From the NCBI GenBank assembly GCA_017798145.1, contig CP059069.1, positions 248,001 to 312,000 of the forward strand: a stretch of 64,000 nt of DNA. The letters are read 5' to 3'. The stretch is from Akkermansiaceae bacterium. GTDB lineage: Bacteria; Verrucomicrobiota; Verrucomicrobiia; Verrucomicrobiales; Akkermansiaceae. Each line of letters begins with the position of its first letter. Positions within the stretch are counted from its first letter, which is position 1. Positions 48,515 through 52,801 of this stretch are shown here, piece after piece. The notes beneath the pieces were generated by a model that searched no databases, was not told the DNA's origin, and saw nothing but the letters and a program-made list of their open reading frames with translations. Position numbers and translations under genes: made by a program.

Positions 48515-48925
48515 ATGTCTGATGAACCTATCAAGGACGGCCTGAGATCCGTCGTGAGGATCGACTTCTACGGCAACGTCCACAAGCGGATGCGGGGAAG
48601 CGATGTTGCGGAGCGCTATGCGCAGGAGGTCGCGGTGCTCAAGGTCCTGGAGGAAAGGGGCTGCCCGTATGTGCCGAGGATCCTTGAAGAGCATCCGGAG
48701 GAATATTATTTCGTCTCCACCAATTGCGGTAGGCCGGCGCCGCAGGTGACGAAAAAGAAAGCCGACAGCCTGTTCGCCGCGCTGGAGAAGGACTACGGGG
48801 TGCGCCATCTCGATGCCGAGCCGCGCAACATCACCTACTCCGACAAGATGGGCCGCTTTTGCATCATCGATTTCGAGCTTGCGGAGATTTTGCCGGATCC
48901 CCATTCATCATCGGAAAAACACTGA
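48515..48925 (+). CDS. Minimal serine/threonine kinase-like protein
   Basis: 136 residues, about half a normal kinase domain. The N-terminal part (VVRIDFYGNVHKRMRG, AERYAQEVAVLKVLEERGCPYVPRIL) resembles a beta-lobe with the Glu helix but no glycine-rich loop. The C-terminal part GVRHLDAEPRNITYSDKMGRFCIIDFELAEIL keeps a catalytic-loop-like HLD...RN and a metal-binding DFE in place of DFG. This is the pattern of small RIO/APH-like kinases paired with PP2C phosphatases in Verrucomicrobia. Only 3 bases separate it from the phosphatase gene, so they form a pair. Confidence 0.82.
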   Translation: MSDEPIKDGLRSVVRIDFYGNVHKRMRGSDVAERYAQEVAVLKVLEERGCPYVPRILEEHPEEYYFVSTNCGRPAPQVTKKKADSLFAALEKDYGVRHLDAEPRNITYSDKMGRFCIIDFELAEILPDPHSSSEKH

Positions 48926-48928
48926 GCC

Positions 48929-49738
48929 GTGGGACAGGTCTGCCAGATCGAGTGGGCGGGAGCCACACGCAGCGGGTCGCGCAAGGAGCGAAATGACGAC
49001 TCGTGGATCGTTTTCTCGGCCGATGCCAAGGGGTCTAGGCAGCTTGCGGAAAGCGGGAAGATGTCGATCTCCGACCAGGACCTGGTGTTCGCGGTTTCCG
49101 ACGGGATGGGCGGGGGGAATGCGGGGCACTTGGCCTCCGCGCTGCTCCTGGAAAGGATGGCCGAACTGATCCCCGAGACTTTCAAGTCCGCCGCGATGGG
49201 TTTTTTCCCGGACTCGATGTCCTATCTGGAGCAGCTAATCAAGGATGTGCACGAGCATATCAATGAGGCTGCCCTCGCTTCCGTGGACTGCGGGGGCATG
49301 GCGGCTACCTTGGCGCTCGCGTGGTTTTCCCCGGAGAACATGTATCTCGCCAATGTCGGCGATTCGCGGATTTACCGCTGCCGCGACGGCAAGACGGAAC
49401 AGCTCAGCAAGGATCACACCTCTGCCTGGGGGCAGTTGGCGCGGGGCGAGATTTCGGAGTTCGAATACCGCAAACATCCGAGGCGGGCCGCGCTCTATCG
49501 GGTGATCGGCGGCGGAAAGCCGGGTGGTGCCCCGCACTTCGCCGCCGTCCAATACCAGCCGGGCGACCGTTTCATGGTCTGTTCGGATGGCCTGATCGAC
49601 GGCCTGTGGGAAAGGCACATCAGGGATGCTCTTGCGGACGGTGGGGCGCCCGCGGAGTGCTGTGAAAAGCTGCTGCAACGCGCCATGGAAAACGCGGGCA
49701 GGGACGACACCACTCTGATTGTCATCCATGTCTCGTGA
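48929..49738 (+). CDS. PP2C-family serine/threonine protein phosphatase
   Basis: 269 residues starting with GTG at 48929. All PP2C metal motifs are present: RNDDSWIVFS, VFAVSDGMGGGNAGHLAS, CGGMAATLALAWF, LANVGDSRIYRC, and MVCSDGLIDGL with GRDDTTLIVIHV at the end. It removes phosphate from Ser/Thr with Mn or Mg ions. It is soluble, without membrane segment or sensor domain. The 3-base gap to the kinase-like gene suggests a reversible phosphorylation switch whose target is not known. Confidence 0.92.
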   Translation: MGQVCQIEWAGATRSGSRKERNDDSWIVFSADAKGSRQLAESGKMSISDQDLVFAVSDGMGGGNAGHLASALLLERMAELIPETFKSAAMGFFPDSMSYLEQLIKDVHEHINEAALASVDCGGMAATLALAWFSPENMYLANVGDSRIYRCRDGKTEQLSKDHTSAWGQLARGEISEFEYRKHPRRAALYRVIGGGKPGGAPHFAAVQYQPGDRFMVCSDGLIDGLWERHIRDALADGGAPAECCEKLLQRAMENAGRDDTTLIVIHVS

Positions 49739-49769
49739 GTTTCACGCCCGCGGCCGGAATTGCGCAGAA

Positions 49770-49785
49770 TGGCACGCAATTTGCT
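49770..49785 (+). promoter_or_regulatory. Sigma-54 (RpoN) promoter of glutamine synthetase II
   Basis: TGGCACG, four bases, TTGCT is an exact match to the -24/-12 consensus TGGCACG-N4-TTGCW. It lies 92 bases before the glnII ATG, in the only intergenic gap of the region, giving a predicted transcript start near 49796. Confidence 0.85.
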
Positions 49786-49877
49786 TTTATTTGGCTTGTC
49801 GGTGAAGCTGGCGGATGATTTTTTGTCCGTGCCTCACCGCAAAACCAATCGCTAACCCGAAATAGAAACCGAACAAC

Positions 49878-50903
49878 ATGTCTAAAGAAAAATACGTATT
49901 GGAGTACCTCTGGCTCGACGGATACACCCCTGTCCCGAATATCCGCGGTAAATCCCAGGTGAAAGAGTTTTCCGCTTTCCCAACCCTCGAAGAACTTCCT
50001 CTCTGGGGCTTCGACGGCAGCTCGACGCGCCAGGCTCCCGGCGGCAGCTCCGACTGCATGCTCAAGCCCGTCGCCGTCTTTCCTGATTGCACCCGCAAGA
50101 ACGGCGTGATCGTGATGTGCGAGGTGGTGATGCCGGACGGGGAGACCCCGCACCCCTCCAACGCACGTGCCACCATCCTCGACGACGAAACCGCATGGTT
50201 CGGCTTCGAGCAGGAATACTTCCTTGTCAAGGATGGCCTCCCGCTCGGTTTCCCCACAGGCGGCTACCCGAATCCGCAGGGTGAATACTATTGCGGTGTC
50301 GGCTACGCCAATGTCGGCGGCATCGCTCGCTCCATCGTCAACGAGCACCTCGACATCTGCCTCGCAGCAGGCATCAACCACGAGGGCATCAACGCAGAGG
50401 TCGCCAAAGGCCAGTGGGAATTCCAGATTTTCGGAAAAGGCTCCAAGAAAGCCGCCGACCAGATCTGGGTCGCCCGTTACCTCCTCCAGCGCCTCTGCGA
50501 GGAATACGGGGTCGACGTGGAATACCACTGCAAGCCGATCCAGGGCGACTGGAACGGCTCCGGTATGCACGCGAACTTCTCCACCGCATACATGCGCGAA
50601 AAAGGCGGCAAGGATTACTTCCTCGCCCTCATGGCCCAGTTCGAGAAAAACTGCGAGGAACACATCGCCGTTTACGGCCCGGACAACCACCTGCGCCTCA
50701 CCGGCCTGCACGAGACGCAATCCATCGACCAGTTCTCGTGGGGTGTTGCTGACCGTGGTGCCTCGATCCGTGTCCCGCACAGCTTCGTCAAGGGCGACAA
50801 GTACCAGGGCTACCTGGAAGACCGTCGTCCCAACTCGCAGGGAGACCCCTACCAGATCGCTTCGCGCATCCTCAAGACGATCTCCGAGGTCCCGACCCCC
50901 TGA
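49878..50903 (+). CDS. glnII: Glutamine synthetase type II
   Basis: 341 residues, far shorter than the ~470 of GlnA type I and typical for the eukaryote-like GSII. It makes glutamine from glutamate, ammonia and ATP. Key blocks are LPLWGFDGSSTRQAPGGSSDCML, AWFGFEQEYFLV, GVGYANVGGIARSIVNEHLDICLAAGINHEGINAEVAKGQWEFQIF, GDWNGSGMHANFS, DNHLRLTGLHETQSIDQFSWGVADRGASIRVP. GSII lacks the adenylylation site of GlnA, so control is likely at transcription, matching the sigma-54 promoter just upstream. It has its own terminator. Confidence 0.96.
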   Translation: MSKEKYVLEYLWLDGYTPVPNIRGKSQVKEFSAFPTLEELPLWGFDGSSTRQAPGGSSDCMLKPVAVFPDCTRKNGVIVMCEVVMPDGETPHPSNARATILDDETAWFGFEQEYFLVKDGLPLGFPTGGYPNPQGEYYCGVGYANVGGIARSIVNEHLDICLAAGINHEGINAEVAKGQWEFQIFGKGSKKAADQIWVARYLLQRLCEEYGVDVEYHCKPIQGDWNGSGMHANFSTAYMREKGGKDYFLALMAQFEKNCEEHIAVYGPDNHLRLTGLHETQSIDQFSWGVADRGASIRVPHSFVKGDKYQGYLEDRRPNSQGDPYQIASRILKTISEVPTP

Positions 50904-50938
50904 TCGGCCTTCCGGTAGATTGTTTCTGCCATTCCAGG

Positions 50939-50969
50939 AAACCGTCTTCCCTATCAGGGGAGGCGGTTT
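50939..50969 (+). terminator. Terminator of glutamine synthetase II
   Basis: A 13 bp stem AAACCGTCTTCCC / GGGGAGGCGGTTT (two G-U pairs) with a 5-base loop, followed by TGCTTTG; the right arm ends in TTTT. Confidence 0.75.
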
Positions 50970-51040
50970 TGCTTTGTGCGGACTGGGTTTTCAGAAACCT
51001 TGCATCACCTCGGGAAAATGTTCAGCGTTTTGGGGCAGAG

Positions 51041-52801
51041 ATGGGAGAAATGGAGAAGGAAATCACATACATGGGCATACCGGCATCGCCCGGCATCGCC
51101 ATCGGCCCCATCCATGTGGTTGCGCGCGGCTTTTCCGCTCCGGAAATCTATGTGATCTCCGAGGAGGAGATCGGCGATGAGCAAGCCCGCTTCGAGGATG
51201 CGGTGGCGCTCACCAAGAAACAGCTCACGGAACTCCAGGAGCGGCTCGAATCCCTGGCGGGGAATTCCGAGAGCGAGATCTTCGAGGCGCACGTGATGTT
51301 GCTGGAGGACAAGGCCTTGCTGAGCCGGGTGGAGAAAGCCATCGCCACCCGGCTGCAGAACGCGGAATATGCATTCTATGCGGTGATGCAGAATTTCCTG
51401 GAGGCCATGCGCCGCATCCCTGACCCATACCTACGCGAGCGCACGGCGGACATCGAGGATGTCTGCCAGCGGGTGCTGCGGAATTTCAAGGTCGATGAGG
51501 ATTCCGACCACAGCGAGCCGGACGAAAAGCACATCCTGCTGGCCTACGACCTTTCACCATCGGACACCGTTTCGATGAACCGGAGACACCTCCTCGGCTT
51601 CGCCACCGAGCAGGGCAGCGTCAACTCCCATACCGCCATCCTCGCCCGCTCCTTCGGCATCCCAGCGGTCGTCGGGCTTGGCGCTTCCGTCATCCAGGTC
51701 ACGGCACTGACCCCGGCTCTCATCGATGGCTATTCGGGAAAGCTCATCCTCAATCCCAGCGAGGAAACTTTGGGCAGATACGTCGCCTTCATGGCGGAAA
51801 AGGAAAAGCAGCGCACCGAGCTGGACGCCAAGCGCGACGAGGCCACGGAGACCATCGACGGGCGCAAGGTCACCCTTTCCGCGAACATCGAATTCCTCGA
51901 AGAGCTTCACCAGGTGAAGCGCAGCGGCGCGAAGGGAGTGGGCCTCTACCGCACCGAGTTCCTGCTCCTCAACGGCAGCGAAATGCCTGACGAGGCGGAG
52001 CAGGAAGCCGCCTACACCCGTGTGGCCAGGGAGGTTGCGCCCGACATGGTCATCGTCCGCACGCTGGATGCCGGCGGCGACAAGCTCCCTGTGGAGCCGC
52101 TCACCGAGCCGGAGCCGAACCCATTCCTCGGATGGCGCGGGATCCGCGTATCCCTCTCCCGCCCCGCCATGTTCCGGGATCAGCTCCGCGCCATCCTGCG
52201 CGCCAGCCATCATGGCAAGACCGCGATCATGTTCCCGCTCGTCTCCGGCCTGACGGAACTCCTAGAGGCGAAGGAAATCCTCAAACGCTGCATGGATGAC
52301 CTGGATGCCGAGGGCATACCCTTCAACCATCAGATCCCGGTCGGCGTGATGATCGAGGTGCCATCCGCCGCTGTCTGCGCGGATTTGCTCGCTCCCCATG
52401 CCGATTTCTTCTCCATCGGGACTAACGACCTGATCCAATACACCGTTGCGGTGGACAGGGTGAACCCACACGTCGCAAACCTCTACAAACCAACCCATCC
52501 GGCAGTCATCCGGCTCATCAAGAGCACCGTTGATGCCGGTGCCGGGCAGGGTATCTGGACAGGTGTCTGCGGGGAGATGGCAGGCGATATCCGCCTCACC
52601 CCGCTCCTCGTCGGACTCGGGGTTTCCGAACTTTCGGTCTCCCCAAAAAACCTCCCGAAAGTGGGCCAGGTGATCCGCTCGCTCGATTTCGCACAGTGCC
52701 AGGACGCCGCCGTGGAAGCCCTCCGGCAGACGAATTCCAAGAGCGTCATGGAAGTGACCCTGTCCGTCGCCAGGCAGCGCTATCCGGATCTGCTGGACTG
52801 A
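51041..52801 (+). CDS. ptsI: Phosphoenolpyruvate-protein phosphotransferase (PTS enzyme I)
   Basis: 586 residues from ATG 51041; ATG 51050 and 51071 are alternatives, the last giving the usual 576. The open frame further left is not coding-like. Enzyme I takes phosphate from PEP and passes it to HPr. The phospho-His is His197 in EQGSVNSHTAILARSFGIPAVVG, the PEP-binding barrel has GVGLYRTEFLLLNG, VRTLDAGGDKLPVEPL, FLGWRGIRVSLSRP, MIEVPSAAVCADLLAPHADFFSIGTNDLIQYTVAVDRVN and the catalytic Cys in GVCGEMAGD. HPr and EII genes are not nearby, so it may serve regulation rather than sugar uptake. Confidence 0.94.
   Translation: MGEMEKEITYMGIPASPGIAIGPIHVVARGFSAPEIYVISEEEIGDEQARFEDAVALTKKQLTELQERLESLAGNSESEIFEAHVMLLEDKALLSRVEKAIATRLQNAEYAFYAVMQNFLEAMRRIPDPYLRERTADIEDVCQRVLRNFKVDEDSDHSEPDEKHILLAYDLSPSDTVSMNRRHLLGFATEQGSVNSHTAILARSFGIPAVVGLGASVIQVTALTPALIDGYSGKLILNPSEETLGRYVAFMAEKEKQRTELDAKRDEATETIDGRKVTLSANIEFLEELHQVKRSGAKGVGLYRTEFLLLNGSEMPDEAEQEAAYTRVAREVAPDMVIVRTLDAGGDKLPVEPLTEPEPNPFLGWRGIRVSLSRPAMFRDQLRAILRASHHGKTAIMFPLVSGLTELLEAKEILKRCMDDLDAEGIPFNHQIPVGVMIEVPSAAVCADLLAPHADFFSIGTNDLIQYTVAVDRVNPHVANLYKPTHPAVIRLIKSTVDAGAGQGIWTGVCGEMAGDIRLTPLLVGLGVSELSVSPKNLPKVGQVIRSLDFAQCQDAAVEALRQTNSKSVMEVTLSVARQRYPDLLD

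Follow-up and report, generated by a model that had tools for sequence, protein, structure and literature searches.

A predicted sigma-54 promoter before the only glutamine synthetase gene found in an Akkermansiaceae genome, and an eroded NtrC-like protein as its candidate activator

The usual account of sigma-54 (RpoN) control of glutamine synthetase is proteobacterial, and a 2025 survey describes such control as found primarily in Pseudomonadota (PMC12316311). The closest described system is that of the rhizobia. There, glnII of Sinorhizobium meliloti is described as directly activated by phosphorylated NtrC with RpoN (PMC5127829), and rhizobial glnII is also treated as an NtrC/RpoN target in PMC3616915; the enzyme is a second synthetase in these bacteria, and NtrC is phosphorylated by NtrB (PMC5127829). 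Sigma-54 activators of unusual build include CtcC of Chlamydia and FlgR of Helicobacter, both reported to have no DNA-binding domain (PMC3162934, PMC7482065), and Asp-less or pseudo-receiver regulators, in which the receiver has no phospho-acceptor Asp, are likewise on record (PMC4395418, PMC12632262). A Verrucomicrobiota methanotroph is reported to express glnA, glnB, glnK, glnD and four NtrC-type genes (PMC3404531). Searches of an open-access library, judged by titles and opening abstract lines, gave nothing on sigma-54/RpoN control of glutamine synthetase in Verrucomicrobia.

The locus described here lies in a window of 64,000 nt (G000:C1:248001-312000) taken from the single-contig, 4.39 Mb genome of an Akkermansiaceae bacterium. 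It resembles rhizobial glnII in that a -24/-12 box precedes a type II glutamine synthetase (GSII) gene by a similar distance, but here GSII is the only synthetase found, and the candidate activator, an orphan NtrC-like protein designated clade A, has no phospho-Asp. In the window's order, clade A shares with CtcC and FlgR an AAA+ core and, mostly, the lack of a recognisable helix-turn-helix (HTH); unlike them, it mostly keeps an eroded HTH remnant, and its phosphorylation site is damaged too. Compared with the Asp-less regulators, the protein that has lost the residue here is a sigma-54 activator, and its relatives from other orders retain the Asp. We consider it probable that the box is a functional RpoN promoter of glnII within a small nitrogen regulon, with clade A as the most likely activator. 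The initial annotation regarded a perfect site before a GSII gene as noteworthy in itself, a point that loses its force because rhizobial glnII is already described as an NtrC/RpoN target (PMC5127829). The promoter type is thus known; what is new is the regularity of the box among Verrucomicrobiota with GSII, where it occurs in nearly all loci read, together with the odd activator. As a circuit, the combination of a sole GSII with a sigma factor that regulates its own gene and an NtrC-like activator that is damaged would also be new.

The -24/-12 element before glnII

The glnII gene (49878..50903, plus strand) codes for a 341 residue GSII. The protein matches Pfam Gln-synt_N and Gln-synt_C and scores 369 bits with the NCBIfam GlnII model, under the model cut-off of 500; it is also the sole match to PF00120 in its own genome, and hence the only glutamine synthetase found. 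The exact -24/-12 element first noted before the gene is indeed present: TGGCACGCAATTTGCT, at 49770-49785 on the plus strand, fits TGGCACG-N4-TTGCW, with the -24 element TGGCACG at 49770..49776 and the -12 element TTGCT at 49781..49785. Counting 12 nt past the C of the -12 GC (49784) puts the predicted transcription start at 49796 (plus strand). With the ATG of glnII at 49878, the leader counted from this predicted start spans 49796-49877, or 82 nt, in agreement with the length of about 82 bases originally proposed.

The exact pattern has only one match in the 64,000-nt window, the one before glnII. Matches with up to two mismatches show no excess (9, versus 10.6 in shuffles), and since weaker matches are no commoner than in shuffled sequence, the signal is carried by the exact match only. 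The expected chance of a site this good is ~2e-5 in the 139-bp intergenic gap on this strand. A sigma-70 scan of 49000-51500, a weak test with 0.6 matches expected, found none, and an Rfam search of the same interval returned one sub-threshold match (18.7 bits, gathering score 50) at 51066-51105, inside ptsI. The glnII site is genuine and very probably functions as a promoter.

The initial annotation also stated that no NtrC palindrome is obvious upstream, and this holds: TGCACC-N5-GGTGCA shows no excess over shuffles there. It is likewise not in excess at the alphaproteobacterial loci, for whose group NtrC control has been published, and the test is therefore weak. Upstream inverted repeats and 7-mers were also considered as sites and rejected, as the strong ones resemble, by eye, coding sequence of the PP2C gene or of a divergent kinase gene.

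Comparison with related loci, as the initial annotation had proposed, provides evidence for conservation of the box. Under a rule requiring a score of at least 9.5, GG and GC cores and a position within 165 nt of the gene, a box precedes glnII in 55/58 loci of a phylum-wide sample, in 24/27 loci of further relatives, in all 36 named Verrucomicrobiota loci and in 42/44 alphaproteobacterial loci; the same rule applied to reverse complements yields 6/165. These locus sets overlap, with some genomes in two of them, and contain 106 distinct Verrucomicrobiota box contexts. In the phylum sample, GSII was found in 59 of 288 genomes, one of which (G089) was dropped because its glnII lies at a contig edge. 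Across the 106 contexts TGGC of the -24 element is 95-100% conserved and TGCT of the -12 element 97-100%, while the spacer and flanks vary; the box stands 75-147 nt before the ATG. One locus scored as box-less, L220 (G007), bears a degenerate box, TGGCGTAAATCATGCT.

The box recurs before type III synthetase (GSIII) genes in Akkermansia-like genomes. In the examined genomes of a genus designated g11, which family and gene content suggest to be Akkermansia or a near neighbour, GSIII is present and GSII is not, and 14/17 of the GSIII loci read there carry a box at -28 to -88 with a score of 11.5 or 12.5; one GSIII locus was read per Akkermansia-like genome, though many have two. The GSIII loci of G124, G221 and G257 (g11) are without a box. 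Elsewhere, the GSIII genes of G024, G130, G197 and G208 have a weaker box (score 10.5), and none was found before those of G106, G108, G176 and G203. No GSI gene has a box above 9.5 (best scores 7.5-9.5, with the starts for G162 and G004 not properly located), and the GSI genes of G037 and G170, at 9.5, would pass the glnII rule.

The proposed sigma-54 regulon and the candidate activator

The site as first read implied an rpoN gene and an NtrC-like activator, and the genome contains both. rpoN is present at G000:C1:1332834-1333307 (E 8.3e-58); it is found in 29/30 genomes of the comparison set (own genome included) and in 284/288 genomes of the phylum. Two of the exceptions, G004 and G294, were considered as natural rpoN knock-outs and rejected: both are drafts that keep activators, and an assembly gap is likelier.

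Genome-wide, the exact pattern TGGCACG-N4-TTGCW occurs three times (among 27 pattern matches), with ~1.2 expected from base composition, and in this genome all three sites precede nitrogen genes. The second, besides that of glnII, starts 91 or 109 nt before two possible ATGs of amt, identified by 358.6 bits to Ammonium_transp and a TIGR00836 score above cut-off. The third lies 43 nt before a gene for a 115-residue PII protein (P-II, 119.7 bits). Because all exact sites precede nitrogen-assimilation genes, they are strong evidence that the box is in use; as in a classical Ntr regulon, the set includes PII and an ammonium transporter. The sigma-54 regulon would thus comprise glnII, amt, PII and rpoN itself.

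The last member rests on a one-mismatch copy, TGGCACAATTATTGCT, directly before the genome's own rpoN (L019, G000:C1:1331851). For Verrucomicrobiia, as for some other classes, an enrichment of sigma-54 promoters at rpoN has been described (PMC12316311); here such a box lies at -48 to -92 in 24/24 genomes read of the window's order, besides the genome itself, and near the rpoN start in 0/20 genomes of other orders of the class. The latter count rules out the rpoN box as a class-wide target of clade A, and rpoN autoregulation thus appears to belong to the lineage in which clade A is eroded. In G019, the single GSII genome of this order in which clade A was not found, the rpoN box is missing. Since the box is missing from 20/20 genomes of other orders, its absence from G144, a box-less genome considered below, is uninformative, and only G019 supports co-loss at rpoN.

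Three strong sigma-54 activators (E <= 1e-30, with GAFTGA or GSFTGA) are encoded in the genome. One, L007, is RtcR-like. The second, L006 (G000:C1:361063), designated clade B, is a response regulator encoded next to a histidine kinase; it is intact, with the phospho-Asp in place and an HTH_8 domain found. The third, L005 (clade A, G000:C1:1984188-1985609), is an orphan; its neighbours resemble, by eye, a PDZ protease and a uracil phosphoribosyltransferase, and no NtrB is found beside it. The best NCBIfam model for clade A is NtrC (430 bits), for clade B AtoC and for its kinase AtoS, all below cut-off.

The occurrence of clade A links the glnII box to this one candidate. Eighty GSII genomes were searched with clade A, and the best matches were fetched and placed in a midpoint-rooted FastTree phylogeny. 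Clade A is found in 70/70 box-bearing GSII genomes of the class Verrucomicrobiae (a class name inferred from kinship labels): 68 are placed by the tree and two by identity only, G012, where the gene is split, and G027, where it has an internal stop and is misplaced in the tree; 13 of the 70 boxes sit at the threshold of 9.5. Conversely, clade A was not found in the four box-less GSII genomes (G144, G232, G306 and G019), where the only match at E <= 1e-75 is clade B. G144, G232 and G306 combine GSII and a single activator, clade B, with no box; G144 and G232 share a genus, and G019 has two box-less GSII genes. The pattern suggests about three independent co-losses of box and clade A. Six GSII genomes of other classes (G044, G052, G121, G184, G213 and G088) were left out of this 70-versus-four comparison, since it was not possible to call clade A in them; they have a box (weak in G088) and no clear clade A.

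A separate observation concerns the state of the clade A genes, which contain a stop inside the match or a frame change in G005, G015, G027, G150, G229 and G136. The last two genomes bear the box, and their genes, broken by the frame change, were placed by the tree; they may be decaying or mis-sequenced.

Clade A-like proteins also occur in GSII-less genomes, in G024 and G283 (437-474 bits) and, by score only, in 13 more (333-364 bits), as well as in G004, of the window's genus. Clade A therefore has, or had, other targets. GSIII bears a box in four of the GSII-less genomes with such proteins.

The build of clade A differs between orders. Clade A proteins of other orders retain the acidic pocket with its phospho-Asp, and most of them a Fis-type HTH. 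Within the window's genus, Ala or Ser takes the place of the Asp, in a pocket that reads VDPD or similar; the genome's own protein has Ala and VDPD, so that its receiver does not appear phosphorylatable. Several sister families have Glu at the Asp site, and g12, g13 and G260 keep the Asp with an altered pocket. Receiver matches to Pfam reach 42-72 bits in seven proteins of the window's branch versus 94-106 in four of other orders. Scored with a home-made HTH profile for which clade B served as training set, clade A of the window's order has a median of 3.4 bits (n=36, 4 above 10) versus 29.65 bits for other orders (n=32, 27 above 10). Pfam HTH_8 was not found in the genome's own clade A or in L267, L279, L287, L288, L293 and L299, the last belonging to genus g27 of another order; it was found in L297, L301, L309 and L316, of which L297 (G153) is at the base of the window's branch, and in the genome's own clade B and RtcR-like proteins. 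The AAA+ core of clade A is intact, with GSFTGA present. A C-terminal remnant remains, so the HTH seems eroded rather than absent, and DNA binding may still be possible.

A candidate enhancer follows a similar division. Among 32 loci of other orders (L164, a near-copy, omitted), the word GGCAAG occurs -59 to -102 from the box in 16, or in 15 of 31 non-redundant loci, versus a best 6-mer count of 8 in 200 shuffles; the word was found after looking, and the shuffles correct for word choice and not for relatedness. In the window's order, for which 41 loci were chosen by hand, GGCAAG occurs in 3, the best word reaches 7/35 non-redundant loci, within the range of shuffles, and before the genome's own glnII no candidate enhancer is visible. 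GGCAAG would look like an enhancer for intact clade A that was lost together with the HTH. Genus g27 is a misfit, as it is without the HTH and keeps GGCAAG in 3/4 loci.

These findings qualify the 'textbook' nitrogen control proposed in the initial annotation. The sigma-54 site and rpoN stand. An NtrC site is not seen, and what co-occurs with the box in this genus is an activator without a phospho-Asp or a recognisable Fis HTH. Sigma-54 polymerase would form a closed complex at 49770-49785, to be opened by an AAA+ activator, most likely the orphan clade A protein. Because its receiver and HTH are eroded and no enhancer is seen, clade A in the window's order probably acts independently of Asp phosphorylation, on some other input, and it perhaps works from solution or through weak DNA contacts. 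Autoregulation of rpoN may raise the gain. A fuller scheme is tentative: a descendant of NtrC that needs neither phosphate nor enhancer might run the regulon, with an input such as PII or the autoregulated amount of sigma-54, and with a second layer in the structured leader and perhaps in a kinase-PP2C pair. If neither phosphate nor enhancer is needed, the system would be a natural case of stepwise rewiring of an NtrC-type regulator, for which the sister orders offer both intact and eroded clade A relatives for comparison.

Other possible activators and the origin of GSII

It is conceivable, though unlikely, that the activator is clade B, itself seen in many of the class's genomes, acting with its adjacent histidine kinase as an intact NtrC-like pair; control would then be classical and phosphorylation-dependent. 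The intact phospho-Asp, HTH_8 and neighbouring kinase are what such control would call for. However, clade B is retained in G144, G232, G306 and G019, whose glnII is box-less, and its best models are AtoC and AtoS, whereas that of clade A is NtrC.

Another improbable arrangement is that clades A and B are redundant, or that the whole pool of AAA+ proteins opens the promoter, with the joint loss of clade A and box reflecting genome reduction. The box-less G306, G232 and G144 have small genomes (1.7-2.4 Mb), clade A is broken in the box-bearing G229 and G136, and GSIII promoters bear the box in genomes without clade A. In particular, clade A is absent by score from 22/22 Akkermansia-like genomes (best 294 bits). 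This is in keeping with their lack of GSII, but the box before their GSIII would need some other protein to open it, perhaps the second activator of these genomes (L255, L260), which has no receiver motif; a glutamine synthetase promoter can thus be served without clade A. Against reduction, GSII genomes of equal or smaller size keep the box and an unbroken clade A (G173, 1.3 Mb; G030, 1.7 Mb), and G019, at 4.1 Mb, is without both. As a side observation, nine g11 genomes have an exact sigma-54 box 40 nt before GSIII (e.g. L399) and, by score, no clade A.

That the site is a chance match, or an unused fossil from a laterally acquired alphaproteobacterial glnII, is very improbable: among the best 80 loci, the alphaproteobacterial GlnII proteins do share 77-80% identity with this GSII, 42/44 of those loci are box-bearing and the GSII tree leaves the two groups unseparated (p-AU 0.30), but the box is near-invariant in 106 distinct contexts despite varying spacer and flanks, two further exact sites precede amt and PII, and rpoN and activators are present in the genome.

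In the same best 80 loci, Verrucomicrobiota sequences are 77-86% identical to the query, and the Verrucomicrobiota titles topping the named relatives include Akkermansiaceae bacterium, Haloferula, Prosthecobacter and Akkermansia. A tree of loci L043-L122, weakly supported, groups 43/44 alphaproteobacterial sequences in a single clade placed among those of Verrucomicrobiota; the direction of transfer was not recovered from it. The origin of rhizobial glnII may merit proper study.

The glnII leader and neighbouring genes

The predicted leader begins with a 5'-terminal stem-loop (49796..49842, plus strand) that recurs in Verrucomicrobiota without conservation of its sequence, followed by a little-structured A/C-rich stretch without a Shine-Dalgarno core before the start codon (49843..49877, plus strand). 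In leader statistics, calculated on 55 nt from the predicted +1 after removal of near-identical leaders and box-less loci, folding z relative to dinucleotide shuffles averages -1.89 over the 94 non-redundant Verrucomicrobiota leaders, 38% of which are below -2. Control windows upstream and within genes give -0.34 to 0.06, and the reverse complement -0.98. Pairing extends from +3 to about +45 and gives way to the A/C-rich stretch, with 7% G. The rhizobial type of leader differs in both folding z and Shine-Dalgarno content: the 35 alphaproteobacterial leaders have a folding z of -0.85 (20% below -2) and show as much pairing, but extending to the ATG, and a Shine-Dalgarno-like core is found in 16/42 of their loci versus 5/107 in Verrucomicrobiota. 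That the fold begins at the predicted +1 agrees with the predicted start.

Covariation in the hairpin is modest in a sister group of 10 (the score was reached by 1/500 shuffles, and the number of double-change pairs was matched by 286/500) and, in the group of 6 to which the window belongs, does not exceed shuffles. Hairpins at 5' ends can protect mRNA, and by this analogy the simplest reading is that the structure would protect the glnII mRNA.

A PP2C-type phosphatase gene (48929..49738, plus strand) lies upstream of glnII, preceded by a gene for a small kinase-like protein of 136 residues (48515..48925, plus strand), which has a Pfam APH match of 26.5 bits (cut-off 23.2) and is paired with PP2C by synteny. 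Most of the Verrucomicrobiota loci read have the two genes close to glnII: PP2C is in the flank in 27/36 named loci and 28/30 genome loci (own included), and in 0/13 alphaproteobacterial loci tested. Orientation varies, with the same strand in many loci close to that genus of the window and the opposite strand in others. It is possible that they form a phosphorylation pair acting on nitrogen assimilation.

Downstream, a hairpin scan identifies a terminator-like hairpin (50946..50970, plus strand) between glnII and ptsI; four such sites were found in the scanned region, where 2.4 were expected. The next gene, ptsI (51041..52801, plus strand), codes for PTS enzyme I by profile matches and adjoins glnII also in L043, L044, L046, G014 and G016. 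In two close relatives, G016 (L407) and G014 (L408), a pyrC-like gene (by eye), glnII, ptsI and rpoN are adjacent; in the genome described here, glnII and ptsI are adjacent and rpoN is 1 Mb distant.
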